Positions 47,429 through 52,162 of a DNA stretch of 64,000 bases are shown here, in pieces; positions within the stretch are counted from its first letter, which is position 1; each line of letters begins with the position of its first letter. The position numbers and the translations under genes are program-made. This DNA is from Burkholderia sp. Ax-1724 (GTDB lineage: Bacteria > Pseudomonadota > Gammaproteobacteria > Burkholderiales > Burkholderiaceae). The notes beneath the pieces are model-generated. The model was not told the DNA's origin. It did no database searches and was given only the letters and a program-made list of their open reading frames with translations. The DNA is taken from the NCBI RefSeq assembly GCF_011752995.1, contig NZ_VWWL01000002.1:248001-312000 (forward strand). Reading direction: 5' to 3'.

Positions 47429-48844
47429 TCAGGCCGCGGCAGCCCGGGCCGCATTCATCCGGCCAAAAACGAACTGACCGAGATACCAGACCAGTTCGGT
47501 ATTCGCGAAGATCGCCTCTTCCGTCACCGTCGACGGTTCCAGCTTCATACGACGCAGCATCAGCTTGCCCTCGCGCGACATCGTCCACGCGTGCATCAGT
47601 TCCTTGCGCGTCTTTGCGTCGGCGGCACTGAAGTGGTCGCGGCCTTGGCGCGAATCTTCGTTCATGCGCGTGCGCACTTCCTCTTCGCGCGTGGCGATGC
47701 TGTGCGCCACCGACTTCCTCGCCACGGTTCTGGCTTCCTGCTCCTGCGTCTCATCGGCAAGCAGTCTGGCCTGGACGTCGACCATCGTTCGCTCGGCGTC
47801 GGACATCTTCCAGTTGTCGCGCAGCGCGCGCATCAGATAGCCCGCCGGACTCTTCTTGACCTGGCCGCGTTTGATTCTGAAGCGCGTGTATTCGACCGCC
47901 TGCTGAATGCGCTCATCGGTCCACACGTCGCGATTCTCGGAAATCTCGGTGAACTGCTTGGTCGATAGCCCGAATTCGTCGGTGAGAATCTTGTACAGAT
48001 GACTCGCATCGGCAAGGCTCGCGAGCACGGCATCGGCCGTGTCCTTGCGCTTGAGCAGGAAGCGGATGCGATCGATTTTCTTCGAGGTTGTCGACGCCGT
48101 CCGCGTCTCGTACGAAAGTTCGACGTCCGATACATCGTTGATCTCACGGACCGCCGGCTCGAGCCAGTCGCGCTTGAAGTACTTGAAGATAGCCGCGTTC
48201 GCGCCCATTTTGCCGGGCCAATTGCGCATCTCTTCGAGCTGAATCCAGTCCGTACGCCCCGCGGGCACGTACGGCAAAACTTTGTCGTAGATCGCGCGCG
48301 CGAGGCTGCGCGTGAACGCGGTCGAAATACGCAGACTCAGCCAGTGCGATTTCTGCGGATCGCGGATGTGAGGCACGAGCCGCGGATGGACGTCGAAACG
48401 CATTCGCCCGCGATGAAAACCGACCATGCCGATAAGTTGAACCTGGACCCAGAGATCGTCCTCGTTCGGATCGCGGTCCGCCGGCGTATTCGTCACGCGG
48501 ACTTTCGCGTTCTGCGCTTCGTCGGCAATCGTGCGTAAATGCTTGAGATTGCGGCTGTCGTAACGCATCAGCCACTTGAAATAGTTAAGCTCGATGTCGT
48601 ACTGATCGCGCTCCTCGGGCTCCTGCGCGACGATGAAATACGCAGCGTCGAGAAAGCGCCGCGCGGGTAGCCCCATATTGACGATTTCGGTGAAGAAGTC
48701 GTTGCGCTGATAGCCGATCTCCCGATTGGCTTCGTTGATGCGCAACCCCTGGTCGAACATGTCTTCGAACAGCGCGAGTGCCATCTGGCGTGAGGTGGCC
48801 TTCGACTTGCCCCCTTCCGGATTGTCCGCCGTCATGTTCTTCAT
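47429..48844 (-). CDS. repA: Replication initiator protein (Rep_3/RepA-like)
   Basis: This 471-residue protein has features of secondary-replicon initiators of Burkholderia-type bacteria: an N-terminal segment LALFEDMFDQGLRINEANREIGYQRNDFFTEIVNMGLPARRFLDAAYFIVAQEP, then winged-helix-rich LSLRISTAFTRSLARAIYDKVLPYVP and IQLEEMRNWPGKMGANAAIFKYFKRDWLEPAVREIN. It would bind the iterons directly upstream and start replication. The start is set at ATG 48844, with ATG 48835 possible. It is divergent from parAB. Confidence 0.83.
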   Translation of the reverse strand: MKNMTADNPEGGKSKATSRQMALALFEDMFDQGLRINEANREIGYQRNDFFTEIVNMGLPARRFLDAAYFIVAQEPEERDQYDIELNYFKWLMRYDSRNLKHLRTIADEAQNAKVRVTNTPADRDPNEDDLWVQVQLIGMVGFHRGRMRFDVHPRLVPHIRDPQKSHWLSLRISTAFTRSLARAIYDKVLPYVPAGRTDWIQLEEMRNWPGKMGANAAIFKYFKRDWLEPAVREINDVSDVELSYETRTASTTSKKIDRIRFLLKRKDTADAVLASLADASHLYKILTDEFGLSTKQFTEISENRDVWTDERIQQAVEYTRFRIKRGQVKKSPAGYLMRALRDNWKMSDAERTMVDVQARLLADETQEQEARTVARKSVAHSIATREEEVRTRMNEDSRQGRDHFSAADAKTRKELMHAWTMSREGKLMLRRMKLEPSTVTEEAIFANTELVWYLGQFVFGRMNAARAAAA

Positions 48845-49875
48845 CCACTTTTTTCGCTTCCGGGACTCTAGCACGTGGTGGTGAGCTGTCAACACACAGA
48901 ACCTCACCATCAGGGCGTGGCCTCGCGGCAAGGAAGTTCGTGCTGCGGATGAGCACACAGAATCTCACCCGAGACACAACCAACCTCACCGACGGAGCGG
49001 CTCATTGTGGAGCCAGGCCTTGTATGACAGCACTTCTGGCCGATTCCGATGGCTTTGCACAACCCACCTCACCTTTGCAGTGGCAAGCGTCTGTCATGCA
49101 CACCGGGCCTCACCTTGATGGGGAAAGAGCCTCACCTTCCTGCACAACAGGCCGCACCTTTACGCACATTCCACCTCACCTTTGGCACAACCCACCTCAC
49201 CTTTCTGAAGTTAAGTAGTTGAATTAACTGGACATTGAAACTTCCTGTTGGTTTGTTGGTTCGTTCTTGTTTTAAAAACAACCCACCAACTGCGATTTGC
49301 AAAGCTGAAAAGAGAAATGACGCAATGCAGCAAGGTGAGGTTGATTGTGCGCGTCTGGAAAGCGCAATCTCGATTTTGGGTGATGGTGAGGTTTGTTGTG
49401 CTGCTGGGTGAGATTGAAATACCCTGGTTTGGTTATGGATCGGCTCCTTAGCCGTTGAGTTCAGGGCCATGTAGGTGAGGTTGATTGTGCGTAGGGGCTT
49501 TCGAAGCGATTCTGATCCCGTATGGTCGCGTTTCGCCCGGCAATTTCGAGGAAAGGTGAGGTCAGTTGTGCTGTAAAGGGTTCGTCAGTGAGACGCGAAA
49601 ATGAGAAAATGCACAAATGACCTCACCAGACGCCAATTTTTTAGGCACGCTGAGACTTGCTCCGGGGATTTTTCGGATAAAGGTGAGGTCATTTGTGCCT
49701 CGCCGAGGTCGCTCAAATAGTCGTGTTTAGCGAGCAAGAGCGCGATCGCCTCCGAAATTGGGCTCTGAAGTGTGTCGAAGTGCGAAAAATCTGCATAAAA
49801 ACAGTAATTTAAAAAGCTATTTTCAAGCATTTCCTGTATTCTGAGGTTTCTAGAATTTTATGGGAAAACCTCAGA
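48845..49875. other. Replication origin region with iterons
   Basis: The region between repA and parA holds at least 14 copies of a 17-bp repeat, consensus GCACAANNNACCTCACC, often followed by TTT. Forward copies begin near 48892, 48953, 48974, 49057, 49098, 49142, 49164, 49185 and 49611; inverted copies near 49334, 49385, 49474, 49555 and 49682. An AT-rich gap with TTGTTTTAAAAACAA (49267-49281) separates the two arms and may be the unwinding element. The sequence after 49780 is again AT-rich. No protein gene is supported here. Confidence 0.88.
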
Positions 49876-49876
49876 A
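49839..49876. promoter_or_regulatory. Inverted repeat over the parA start
   Basis: TTCTGAGGTTT and AAACCTCAGAA are perfect 11-bp arms separated by 16 bases; the right arm ends at the first base of the parA start codon. The location suits autoregulation by ParA or ParB. Confidence 0.65.
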
Positions 49877-51087
49877 TGGTCAGAACGAGCCAACTTCCTG
49901 CCGTAGACCGAACCGTTCACTTTGAGCAGATCAGCCAGTTTGCGGAAAAGGTCACGATTTTTACCAATGAGCTGCGTGACACGATTCTGGCTCCGCGTCC
50001 GCGAAAGACGGCTCCTGTTTTCAAGACGGGTGAGATTGCCGAGATGTGCAATATCTCTCACTCGCAGGTTCAATATCTTGCGACCAAGGGCGACGGTGAA
50101 TTGCCCTCGGGCACCGCTGCCGGCACCGGTCGCACCCGCACGTTCACCCTCGAAGAAGCGCGCATCTGGGTGCAGAAAATTTCTGATATCTACCAGACTC
50201 CGCTCGTCACCCGCGTGAAGGAGCCGGACGGAAAGATCATCATTACCGCTCAGCTCAAAGGTGGGTCCGCGAAGACGACAACGACCATGTGCCTCGCTCA
50301 AGGCCTATCGTTGCGCGGCCGCAAGGTACTTGTGGTCGACCTCGATCCGCAGGCGTCACTGTCGGAACTGTGCGGACTGTATGCGGAAAAAGATGTGACA
50401 CCGGAAGATACGGTGCTGCCGTACGTCTATGACCAGGATATCGAAGGGGGTCTCGAAGGCCGGGTGCAGTCGACTTACTGGGATGGCATCGATGTCATTC
50501 CGGCGCACACGGAGCTGATCGGTGCTGAGTTTCATTTGCCGGCAATGCAAAAGGTGAGGCCGGGTTTCCGGTTTTGGACAGTCCTTCGCCAGGGCCTCGA
50601 ACCGCTACGGAAGAAGTACGACTACATTCTGATGGACACATCGCCGTCGCTGTCATACCTCAATCTGAATGCACTCATGGCGGCGGATGCAATGGTGATG
50701 CCGATGGTGCCGGAGAACCTCGACTTCATCAGTTCGCTGTCGTTCTGGAGACTCTTCTCGGACGTGTCGAAGAGCTTCATCAAGTACGAGAAGGACAAGA
50801 AATACGACTTCGTCTCGCTGGTGCTTTCGAGGGTCGATTACGGGCGAAACTCGTCGGCGCCCATCGTGCGTGCGTGGGCACAGAGCGCATACGAAAACTG
50901 GCTGCACTCGATTGAAGTGCCGGCGAGCTCGGTGATGAGTACGGGCGCGCTGGCGTTCTCGACGGTCTTTGACATCAGCAGCACCCACAGCGCAGCCAAG
51001 TCGCTGCAGCGTGTACGGCAGCCGCTGGTTGACTATTGCCGATGGATCGACGAAATCTATTCGGAAAAATGGAGGAACGCGCAATGA
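49876..51087 (+). CDS. parA: ParA partition ATPase with N-terminal HTH
   Basis: The 403-residue ParA has an N-terminal DNA-binding part (FKTGEIAEMCNISHSQVQYLATKG), as in type Ia ParA that represses its own operon, then a deviant Walker A LKGGSAKTTTTMCLAQGL, VLVVDLDPQASLSELCGL and YDYILMDTSPSLSYLNLNAL. It moves the replicon copies with ParB. Its stop overlaps the parB start (ATGA). An inverted repeat over the start suggests autoregulation. Confidence 0.93.
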   Translation: MVRTSQLPAVDRTVHFEQISQFAEKVTIFTNELRDTILAPRPRKTAPVFKTGEIAEMCNISHSQVQYLATKGDGELPSGTAAGTGRTRTFTLEEARIWVQKISDIYQTPLVTRVKEPDGKIIITAQLKGGSAKTTTTMCLAQGLSLRGRKVLVVDLDPQASLSELCGLYAEKDVTPEDTVLPYVYDQDIEGGLEGRVQSTYWDGIDVIPAHTELIGAEFHLPAMQKVRPGFRFWTVLRQGLEPLRKKYDYILMDTSPSLSYLNLNALMAADAMVMPMVPENLDFISSLSFWRLFSDVSKSFIKYEKDKKYDFVSLVLSRVDYGRNSSAPIVRAWAQSAYENWLHSIEVPASSVMSTGALAFSTVFDISSTHSAAKSLQRVRQPLVDYCRWIDEIYSEKWRNAQ

Positions 51088-52058
51088 GTAATATGCGAGA
51101 ACAGTTGCTGGCCAAGACGTCCGGCATTCGCAAGACCTCGGCCATCAATGAGGACGAGGTGAAGCGCAGCAATCGCACGCAGACAGCGCCCGGCCTCGCG
51201 GGCGCGCTAGCCGTTGCGCAGCTTCGGGTACAGGAGCTGGAGGCAACCGGTGTTGCATCGCAGTTGGCGGTGGCGGGAATTTTGCCCAATCCCTGGCAGC
51301 CTCGGCGGGTGTTCAACGAAGCCAAGCTTGCGGAACTCGCCGAGTCCATCCGTGAGGTTGGACTCATGCAGCCGATCGTTGTGCGTCGTGTCGCCGACGA
51401 TTATCAGATTGTTGCTGGTGAGCGGCGTTGGCGAGCACACAAGATGCTCGGACTCGATACGATCAAGGCGGTGGTGGCGGACTGCTCCGACTCGGATATG
51501 GCCGTTCTGGCGATGGTCGAAAATATCAGCCGGGACGATCTGGCCGATTACGAGATCGGGGTTGCTATCCGCAGATCGGAGACGGAGTTTCCGAACCGGA
51601 AGCGACTGGCGGAGGCGATGGGTTTGTCTCGTGCAGGGCTTTACCAATTTCTTGCGTTCGACAATCTTCCGGACTTTATCAAAAAGGATCTGGATATCCA
51701 GCCGCGGCTTCTTGGTGGAACTGCGGCACAGGCGATTGCCGCGGCGATCAAAAAACACGGCGAGGATGGCATCAAGGCCGCGCGTGAAATTTGGCCGCTG
51801 CTGGTGAGAGGCGAAATGGATCAGGGCAAGATCGCCTCGGCCATTGTGGCGCTGGCCACGAGACAGACGACGTCAGGCGGAGCGAGCGGACGCAGCATCG
51901 AAAAGTTTTTCTCGGGACGGGAGCACGCAGGAAGTATCACGAAGGACATCAGCAACTTTACGATCAAGATCAAGACCGGAGTGATTACCGAGGCGCAGGA
52001 GATTCAGATACGTCAGCTTATCGGGCAGATGTTTCATGCGCAGCCCAAGACGAATTGA
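51084..52058 (+). CDS. parB: ParB centromere-binding protein
   Basis: The 324-residue protein has the ParB/Srx domain: NPWQPRRVFNEAKLAELAESIREVGLMQPIVVRR, GERRWRAHKMLGL, then MVENISRDDLADYEIGVAIRR and the HTH LAEAMGLSRAGLYQFLAF. It binds parS and loads clamps with CTP. GGAGG precedes the ATG at 51084, which overlaps parA. A terminator and a long palindrome follow. Confidence 0.93.
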   Translation: MSNMREQLLAKTSGIRKTSAINEDEVKRSNRTQTAPGLAGALAVAQLRVQELEATGVASQLAVAGILPNPWQPRRVFNEAKLAELAESIREVGLMQPIVVRRVADDYQIVAGERRWRAHKMLGLDTIKAVVADCSDSDMAVLAMVENISRDDLADYEIGVAIRRSETEFPNRKRLAEAMGLSRAGLYQFLAFDNLPDFIKKDLDIQPRLLGGTAAQAIAAAIKKHGEDGIKAAREIWPLLVRGEMDQGKIASAIVALATRQTTSGGASGRSIEKFFSGREHAGSITKDISNFTIKIKTGVITEAQEIQIRQLIGQMFHAQPKTN

Positions 52059-52081: not shown

Positions 52082-52106
52082 AAGCCCGCCTCGTGCGGGC
52101 TTTTTT
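52082..52106 (+). terminator. Rho-independent terminator after parAB
   Basis: AAGCCCGC-CTCGT-GCGGGCTT followed by TTTT lies 24 bp after the parB stop. It has a classic stem, short loop and T tract. Confidence 0.9.
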
Positions 52107-52141: not shown

Positions 52142-52162
52142 AGTGTCTAGAGTCTAGACACT
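52142..52162. promoter_or_regulatory. 21-bp perfect palindrome, parS candidate
   Basis: AGTGTCTAGA-G-TCTAGACACT is perfectly symmetric with 10-bp arms. It lies 84 bp after parB and beyond the terminator, a usual place for a centromere. I saw no second copy in the window by eye. Confidence 0.55.

Follow-up and report, generated by a model that had tools for sequence, protein, structure and literature searches.

The 21-bp palindrome directly behind parB in the window (the whole 64-kb stretch of DNA analyzed here) is, with a probability that we put at roughly 95% from sequence comparisons, parS, the centromere that a type I ParABS system uses to partition a megaplasmid or chromid in a Paraburkholderia genome. 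We favor this reading because of the linkage of the palindrome to close ParB homologs, its replacement in other clades, its occurrence in arrays, the covariation of its core with contact residues of ParB, the success of predictions on held-out loci, and the orthogonality of family members that share a cell. In addition, a comparison of approximately 180 relatives suggests that three amino acids of ParB read three bases of the site, and that centromere sequences are largely predictable from the protein. The locus comprises the following features:

47429 to 48958, minus strand: gene for a Rep3-type replication initiator, divergent from parA.
48893 to 49699, no strand: iteron-like repeats in both orientations (GCACAAnnnnCCTCACCTT and its complement), between the Rep3-type initiator and parA; probable replication origin.
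49876 to 51087, plus strand: parA, encoding a RepA/SopA-like Walker-type ATPase of 403 aa with an N-terminal extension of approximately 120 aa.
51084 to 52058, plus strand: parB, encoding a 324-aa protein of the ParB/RepB/Spo0J family with motifs NPWQPR, GERR, and ENISRDDL.
51630 to 51632, plus strand: codon for ParB R183 (Caulobacter ParB R173).
51645 to 51647, plus strand: codon for ParB Q188 (Caulobacter ParB N178); this residue tracks half-site base p7.
51720 to 51722, plus strand: codon for ParB T213 (Caulobacter ParB 201, Noc R186); this residue tracks half-site base p8.
51729 to 51731, plus strand: codon for ParB Q216 (Caulobacter ParB R204); this residue tracks half-site base p6.
52082 to 52106, plus strand: intrinsic terminator hairpin of parAB (AAGCCCGCCTCGTGCGGGCTT followed by a T run), distinct from the palindrome and upstream of it.
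52142 to 52162, no strand: parS candidate AGTGTCTAGAGTCTAGACACT, a 21-bp perfect palindrome, with the conserved 19-bp core GTGTCTAGAnTCTAGACAC at 52143 to 52161.

The start of parB overlaps the stop of parA by 4 bp. ParA matched the AAA_31 (8e-34) and partition_RepA (1e-55) models, and ParB matched ParB_N (6e-31) and TIGR00180, with its CTP-binding motifs kept and a helix-turn-helix region that aligns to Noc. Three elements that characterize a type I ParABS system were found: a gene for a Walker-type ATPase as ParA, a ParB with ParB_N, CTP-binding motifs, and a helix-turn-helix, and a palindromic parS candidate near parAB that recurs with its cognate ParB. The contig measures at least 444 kb, and the complete relatives of this replicon are plasmids or chromids of 0.4 to 1.6 Mb.

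The palindrome starts 84 bp past the parB stop codon and consists of 10-bp arms around a single central G (AGTGTCTAGA-G-TCTAGACACT), exactly as the first-pass annotation had described it. Its dissimilarity to chromosomal parS, claimed in the same annotation, holds as well, the site being GTGTCTAGAnTCTAGACAC as opposed to TGTTTCACGTGAAACA. The 64-kb window contains no longer perfect palindrome, and only about 0.06 odd-centred palindromes of such length are expected per mononucleotide-shuffled window. When up to 3 mismatches were allowed, no further match was found in the window (shuffles giving an expectation of 0), nor a second copy in the whole 7.2-Mb genome.

Folded as RNA, the palindrome forms a strong hairpin, and it might instead be a second transcription terminator or, autoregulation being common among par proteins, an operator through which the par operon is controlled by ParB or ParA. 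We consider both extremely unlikely: a terminator of the parAB operon already precedes the palindrome, which itself is not followed by a T-run and lies behind the par operon rather than before it, the upstream region being devoid of such palindromes in the ParB family. The multi-copy arrays and the covariation with ParB described below also favor a centromere.

The proposal that this is a replicon-specific centromere beside parAB had been made to hinge on recurrence of the palindrome on related replicons, and it does recur behind close ParBs. In a survey of 148 genomes of the genus, the palindrome pattern, with at most 3 mismatches, was present in 36, two of which held 3-mismatch chance matches on unrelated contigs; a reversed-pattern control also returned 2 matches. 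The remaining 34 coincide exactly with the set of genomes, likewise 34, in which the best ParB reaches at least 77% identity to the window ParB, and in the other 114 genomes of the genus the palindrome is absent apart from the two chance matches. This complete correspondence (34/34), the swapping of the palindrome when ParB diverges, and a core that tracks predicted contact residues all support the proposal. The palindrome was located directly behind parB in each of the 28 true matches that were retrieved. The retrieved loci of close relatives carry 1 to 9 copies at this place, and the portion that is invariant across these relatives is the 19-mer given above.

The search for further copies, which had also been suggested, thus gave none in the genome itself (at most 3 mismatches), yet most relatives carry two or more. 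Since dispersed parS clusters exist on some replicons, the single copy on the window replicon could be a relic or a minor ParB site, with the main centromere elsewhere on the replicon. This is very improbable, as the genome holds no other copy within 3 mismatches, and several relatives with a ParB that is approximately 91% to 94% identical likewise carry a single copy at the same place. Moreover, one parS can reportedly suffice in Pseudomonas aeruginosa (PMC4368675).

More distant relatives carry different sites. An unbiased scan behind parB for families of 18- to 19-bp palindromes, covering approximately 110 homologs, revealed that each ParB clade has a different recurring palindrome at the same place, with scores far above those of the controls (upstream of parB, and the parB gene itself). 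The outer GTGT arm and the innermost A are common to most of these sites, while the three bases between them (p6 to p8 of the half-site) vary. This word is TAG in the window and CAT, AGT, CCA, ACC, CCC, TCC, CCT, TCT, or others elsewhere, and at least 16 core words occur in the family; half-sites of other classes include GTGTCCATA, GTGTCAGTA, and GTGTCCCAA. On the Cupriavidus megaplasmids L143 (pBB1), L144, L145, and L155, arrays of CCGTCCCAAnTTGGGACGG-type palindromes were found behind parB, with 9 to 35 copies at a spacing of approximately 39 bp. Some ParB clades are associated with 18-bp even-centred sites (e.g., L107, L108, L110, L117, and L279 to L297). In these sites, the core is displaced outward by one base. 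Residues 188 and 213 fit after this shift and residue 216 mostly does not, suggesting that the dimer spacing has changed. A search of genome contigs for further related loci yielded mainly generic chromosomal ParBs and contributed little to the comparison.

Every variable ParB column was compared with each half-site base by mutual information across 46 dereplicated 19-bp systems, the same set on which the residue-base rules had first been spotted by eye. For p8, residue 213 ranked first (0.87, against 0.43 for the next column), and the pairing had no exceptions: asparagine occurred with T (20 times), histidine with C (9 times), and threonine or serine with G or A (17 times), these last two bases not being separated by the residue. 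Residue 188 was top-ranked for p7 (0.57 versus 0.44), with glutamine accompanying A or G, and arginine or lysine accompanying C; the two exceptions fall within a 40%-identical group. For p6, the top column was residue 216 (0.50 versus 0.47), where glutamine goes with T in 11 of 11 cases, although the rule fails in one 19-bp class. Residue 216 was also the top column for p6 when co-change on the tree was considered, and p6-216 was the only pair that was clearly significant in that analysis. Residue 183 hardly varies, with arginine in 171 and lysine in 6 of the 177 family proteins.

Two other comparisons were set aside. A whole-core partial Mantel test showed no significant enrichment for the DNA-binding domain (P = 0.10); it mixed the positions, which the per-position screen resolved. 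The columns that two TAGA clades have in common but do not share with their neighbors included 216 together with several outside the DNA-binding domain, and were not decisive.

Alignment with the PDB Noc chains places residues 213, 188, 216, and R183 at Caulobacter ParB positions 201, 178, 204, and 173, all of which contact DNA in the ParB-parS complex (PMC7383237). Residue 173 of that protein reads outer base 1, and residue 201 inner base 6 (PMC7383237), a geometry that would suit the reading of the constant GTGT arm by a conserved R183 and of an inner core base by residue 213. It is likely that these relations form a modular code, in which residues 188, 213, and 216 each set one centromere base while the conserved arginine holds the outer arm. 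With such a code, parS and replicon compatibility would be readable from the ParB sequence, and combinatorial evolution would have produced the 16 or more core words.

These data also bear on whether the palindrome is a recombination site of the tyrosine recombinase that is often encoded behind parB in this ParB family. Several relatives carry such a gene (e.g., pHG1 and pENH92), and palindromic sites suit recombinases. However, among the 89 loci in which the downstream sequence exceeds 2.3 kb, 59 lack the recombinase, as does the entire window, and the palindromes are still present. With a core that tracks the DNA-contact residues of ParB, and with arrays of 9 to 35 copies that are ill-suited to recombination, we find this explanation hardly credible, and retain that of a centromere.

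One clade (L088, L090 to L094, and L096) seemed to be a counterexample to the rules, as it lacked a symmetric palindrome. Its residues R188, N213, and D216 predict the core CCTA, and a search for this core uncovered AGTGTGCTAcTAGGCACACT or a near copy at least twice behind parB in 7/7 loci, which overturned the objection. This asymmetric class, conserved in the seven loci, lies 175 to 614 bp behind parB; a C is absent from one arm, placing the outer and inner parts on different symmetry axes.

For a second test, the rules were fixed before 60 ParB loci were retrieved from other Burkholderiaceae genomes, and sites could be located in 57 of them. The p7 rule fitted all 57 sites and the p8 rule 56 (the remaining one having a residue outside the rule), while the p6 rule fitted 37 of the 39 odd sites and only 3 of the 18 even ones, failing in 15; for the even sites, a register shift of one base was applied, known from the first set and absent from the pre-stated rule. 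Dereplication at 85% identity, both against the first set and among the new lineages, left 15, in which p8 was correct in 14 (permutation P = 5e-5), p7 in 15 (P = 0.011), and p6 in 13 (P = 0.018). Among the held-out proteins, L291 shares no more than 59% identity with any protein of the first set; its combination Q188-T213-E216 had not been seen before, and its site has a new core, CAG, as the rules predict.

By analogy with characterized systems, we infer that ParB physically binds the site and spreads in a CTP-dependent manner, and that the site acts in segregation and incompatibility. A ParB dimer would bind the palindrome with one helix-turn-helix domain per half-site. In each domain, R183, which is near-invariant, would recognize the outer G that is constant in the GTGT arm, and the variable core bases p6 (T), p7 (A), and p8 (G) would be read by Q216, Q188, and T213, respectively. 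After loading as a CTP clamp, ParB would spread from the site, and ParA, through its gradients, would move the sister ParB-parS complexes into the two cell halves; these two steps are drawn from the ParABS literature, and the window ParB retains the CTP-binding motifs. The core word would make the site private to its replicon, such that several family members could share one cell. The covariation and the orthogonality of family members lend indirect support to binding of the site by ParB and to its role in stability and incompatibility.

Among known partition systems, type Ia systems such as SopABC of the F plasmid and ParABS of P1 resemble the window locus in having a long ParA with an N-terminal extension and a centromere downstream of parB. 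The sopC centromere is a tandem array of palindromes, and the Cupriavidus arrays are alike in this respect. The site sequence differs, however, and the match to the SopA model is far below its cut-off. The repABC systems of Alphaproteobacteria share the RepA-like ParA with N-terminal extension, a parS in which constant outer bases frame a variable core (GTTNNNNGCNNNNAAC, PMC9040568), and the presence of many compatible members per genome. Their parS, however, is 16 bp long and even-centred with a central GC, as opposed to 19 bp with an odd centre in the window family, and GTTNNNNGCNNNNAAC is not matched by the window site. Moreover, the window locus lacks repC and has a divergent Rep3-type initiator instead, and neither its ParA nor its ParB reaches the curated cut-off of the respective RepA or RepB model.

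The Bsr systems of Burkholderia secondary replicons (c2, c3, and pBC) also have replicon-specific palindromic parS sites beside parAB in Burkholderiales, orthogonal within the cell (PMC5450999). Their palindromes are 16 bp long and centred on CG (PMC5450999), whereas the window site spans 19 to 21 bp around an odd centre, without a central CG. In the comparison, which was made with the pBC proteins, ParB was 25% identical to the window ParB, and ParA measured approximately 223 aa versus 403 aa. Chromosomal ParB-parS and Noc-NBS share the ParB fold and the contact positions (PMC7383237), but use two fixed words, TGTTTCACGTGAAACA and ATTTCCCGGGAAAT, while the plasmid family of the window uses at least 16. 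Going by its sequence, the site is a type I (Ia-like) ParABS centromere that belongs to neither the chromosomal nor the Bsr nor the repABC type of parS. The 19-bp odd-centred parS family and the residue-base recognition rules appear to be the new part. No mention of the exact site or the site family was found in the open-access literature that was searched; individual sites may have been mentioned earlier elsewhere.

Burkholderiaceae carry several large plasmids per cell, each of which needs a private centromere. None of 30 same-genome pairs of family members fell in one parS class, where 4.3 were expected (P = 0.006). This absence of class sharing is what replicon-specific centromeres would require, with the qualification that closely related ParBs are also rarely co-resident. 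The many natural ParB-parS pairs and their apparent residue-to-base rules make the evolution of DNA-binding specificity directly testable, and allow parS annotation and guesses of compatibility from sequence. For labelling DNA and for engineering stable multi-plasmid strains, the family further supplies many candidate orthogonal ParB-parS pairs.

The region behind parB showed two further features in individual relatives. A tyrosine recombinase of approximately 585 aa is encoded behind the parS region in L146, L149, L151, L152, and others, in total behind parB in about one third of the loci with enough flanking sequence, and is possibly a megaplasmid dimer-resolution or integration gene. In L022, fragments matching the 3' end of parB lie between the parS copies (1555 to 1650 and 1810 to 1923), which suggests that parS copies multiply via tandem duplications that take in the end of parB.
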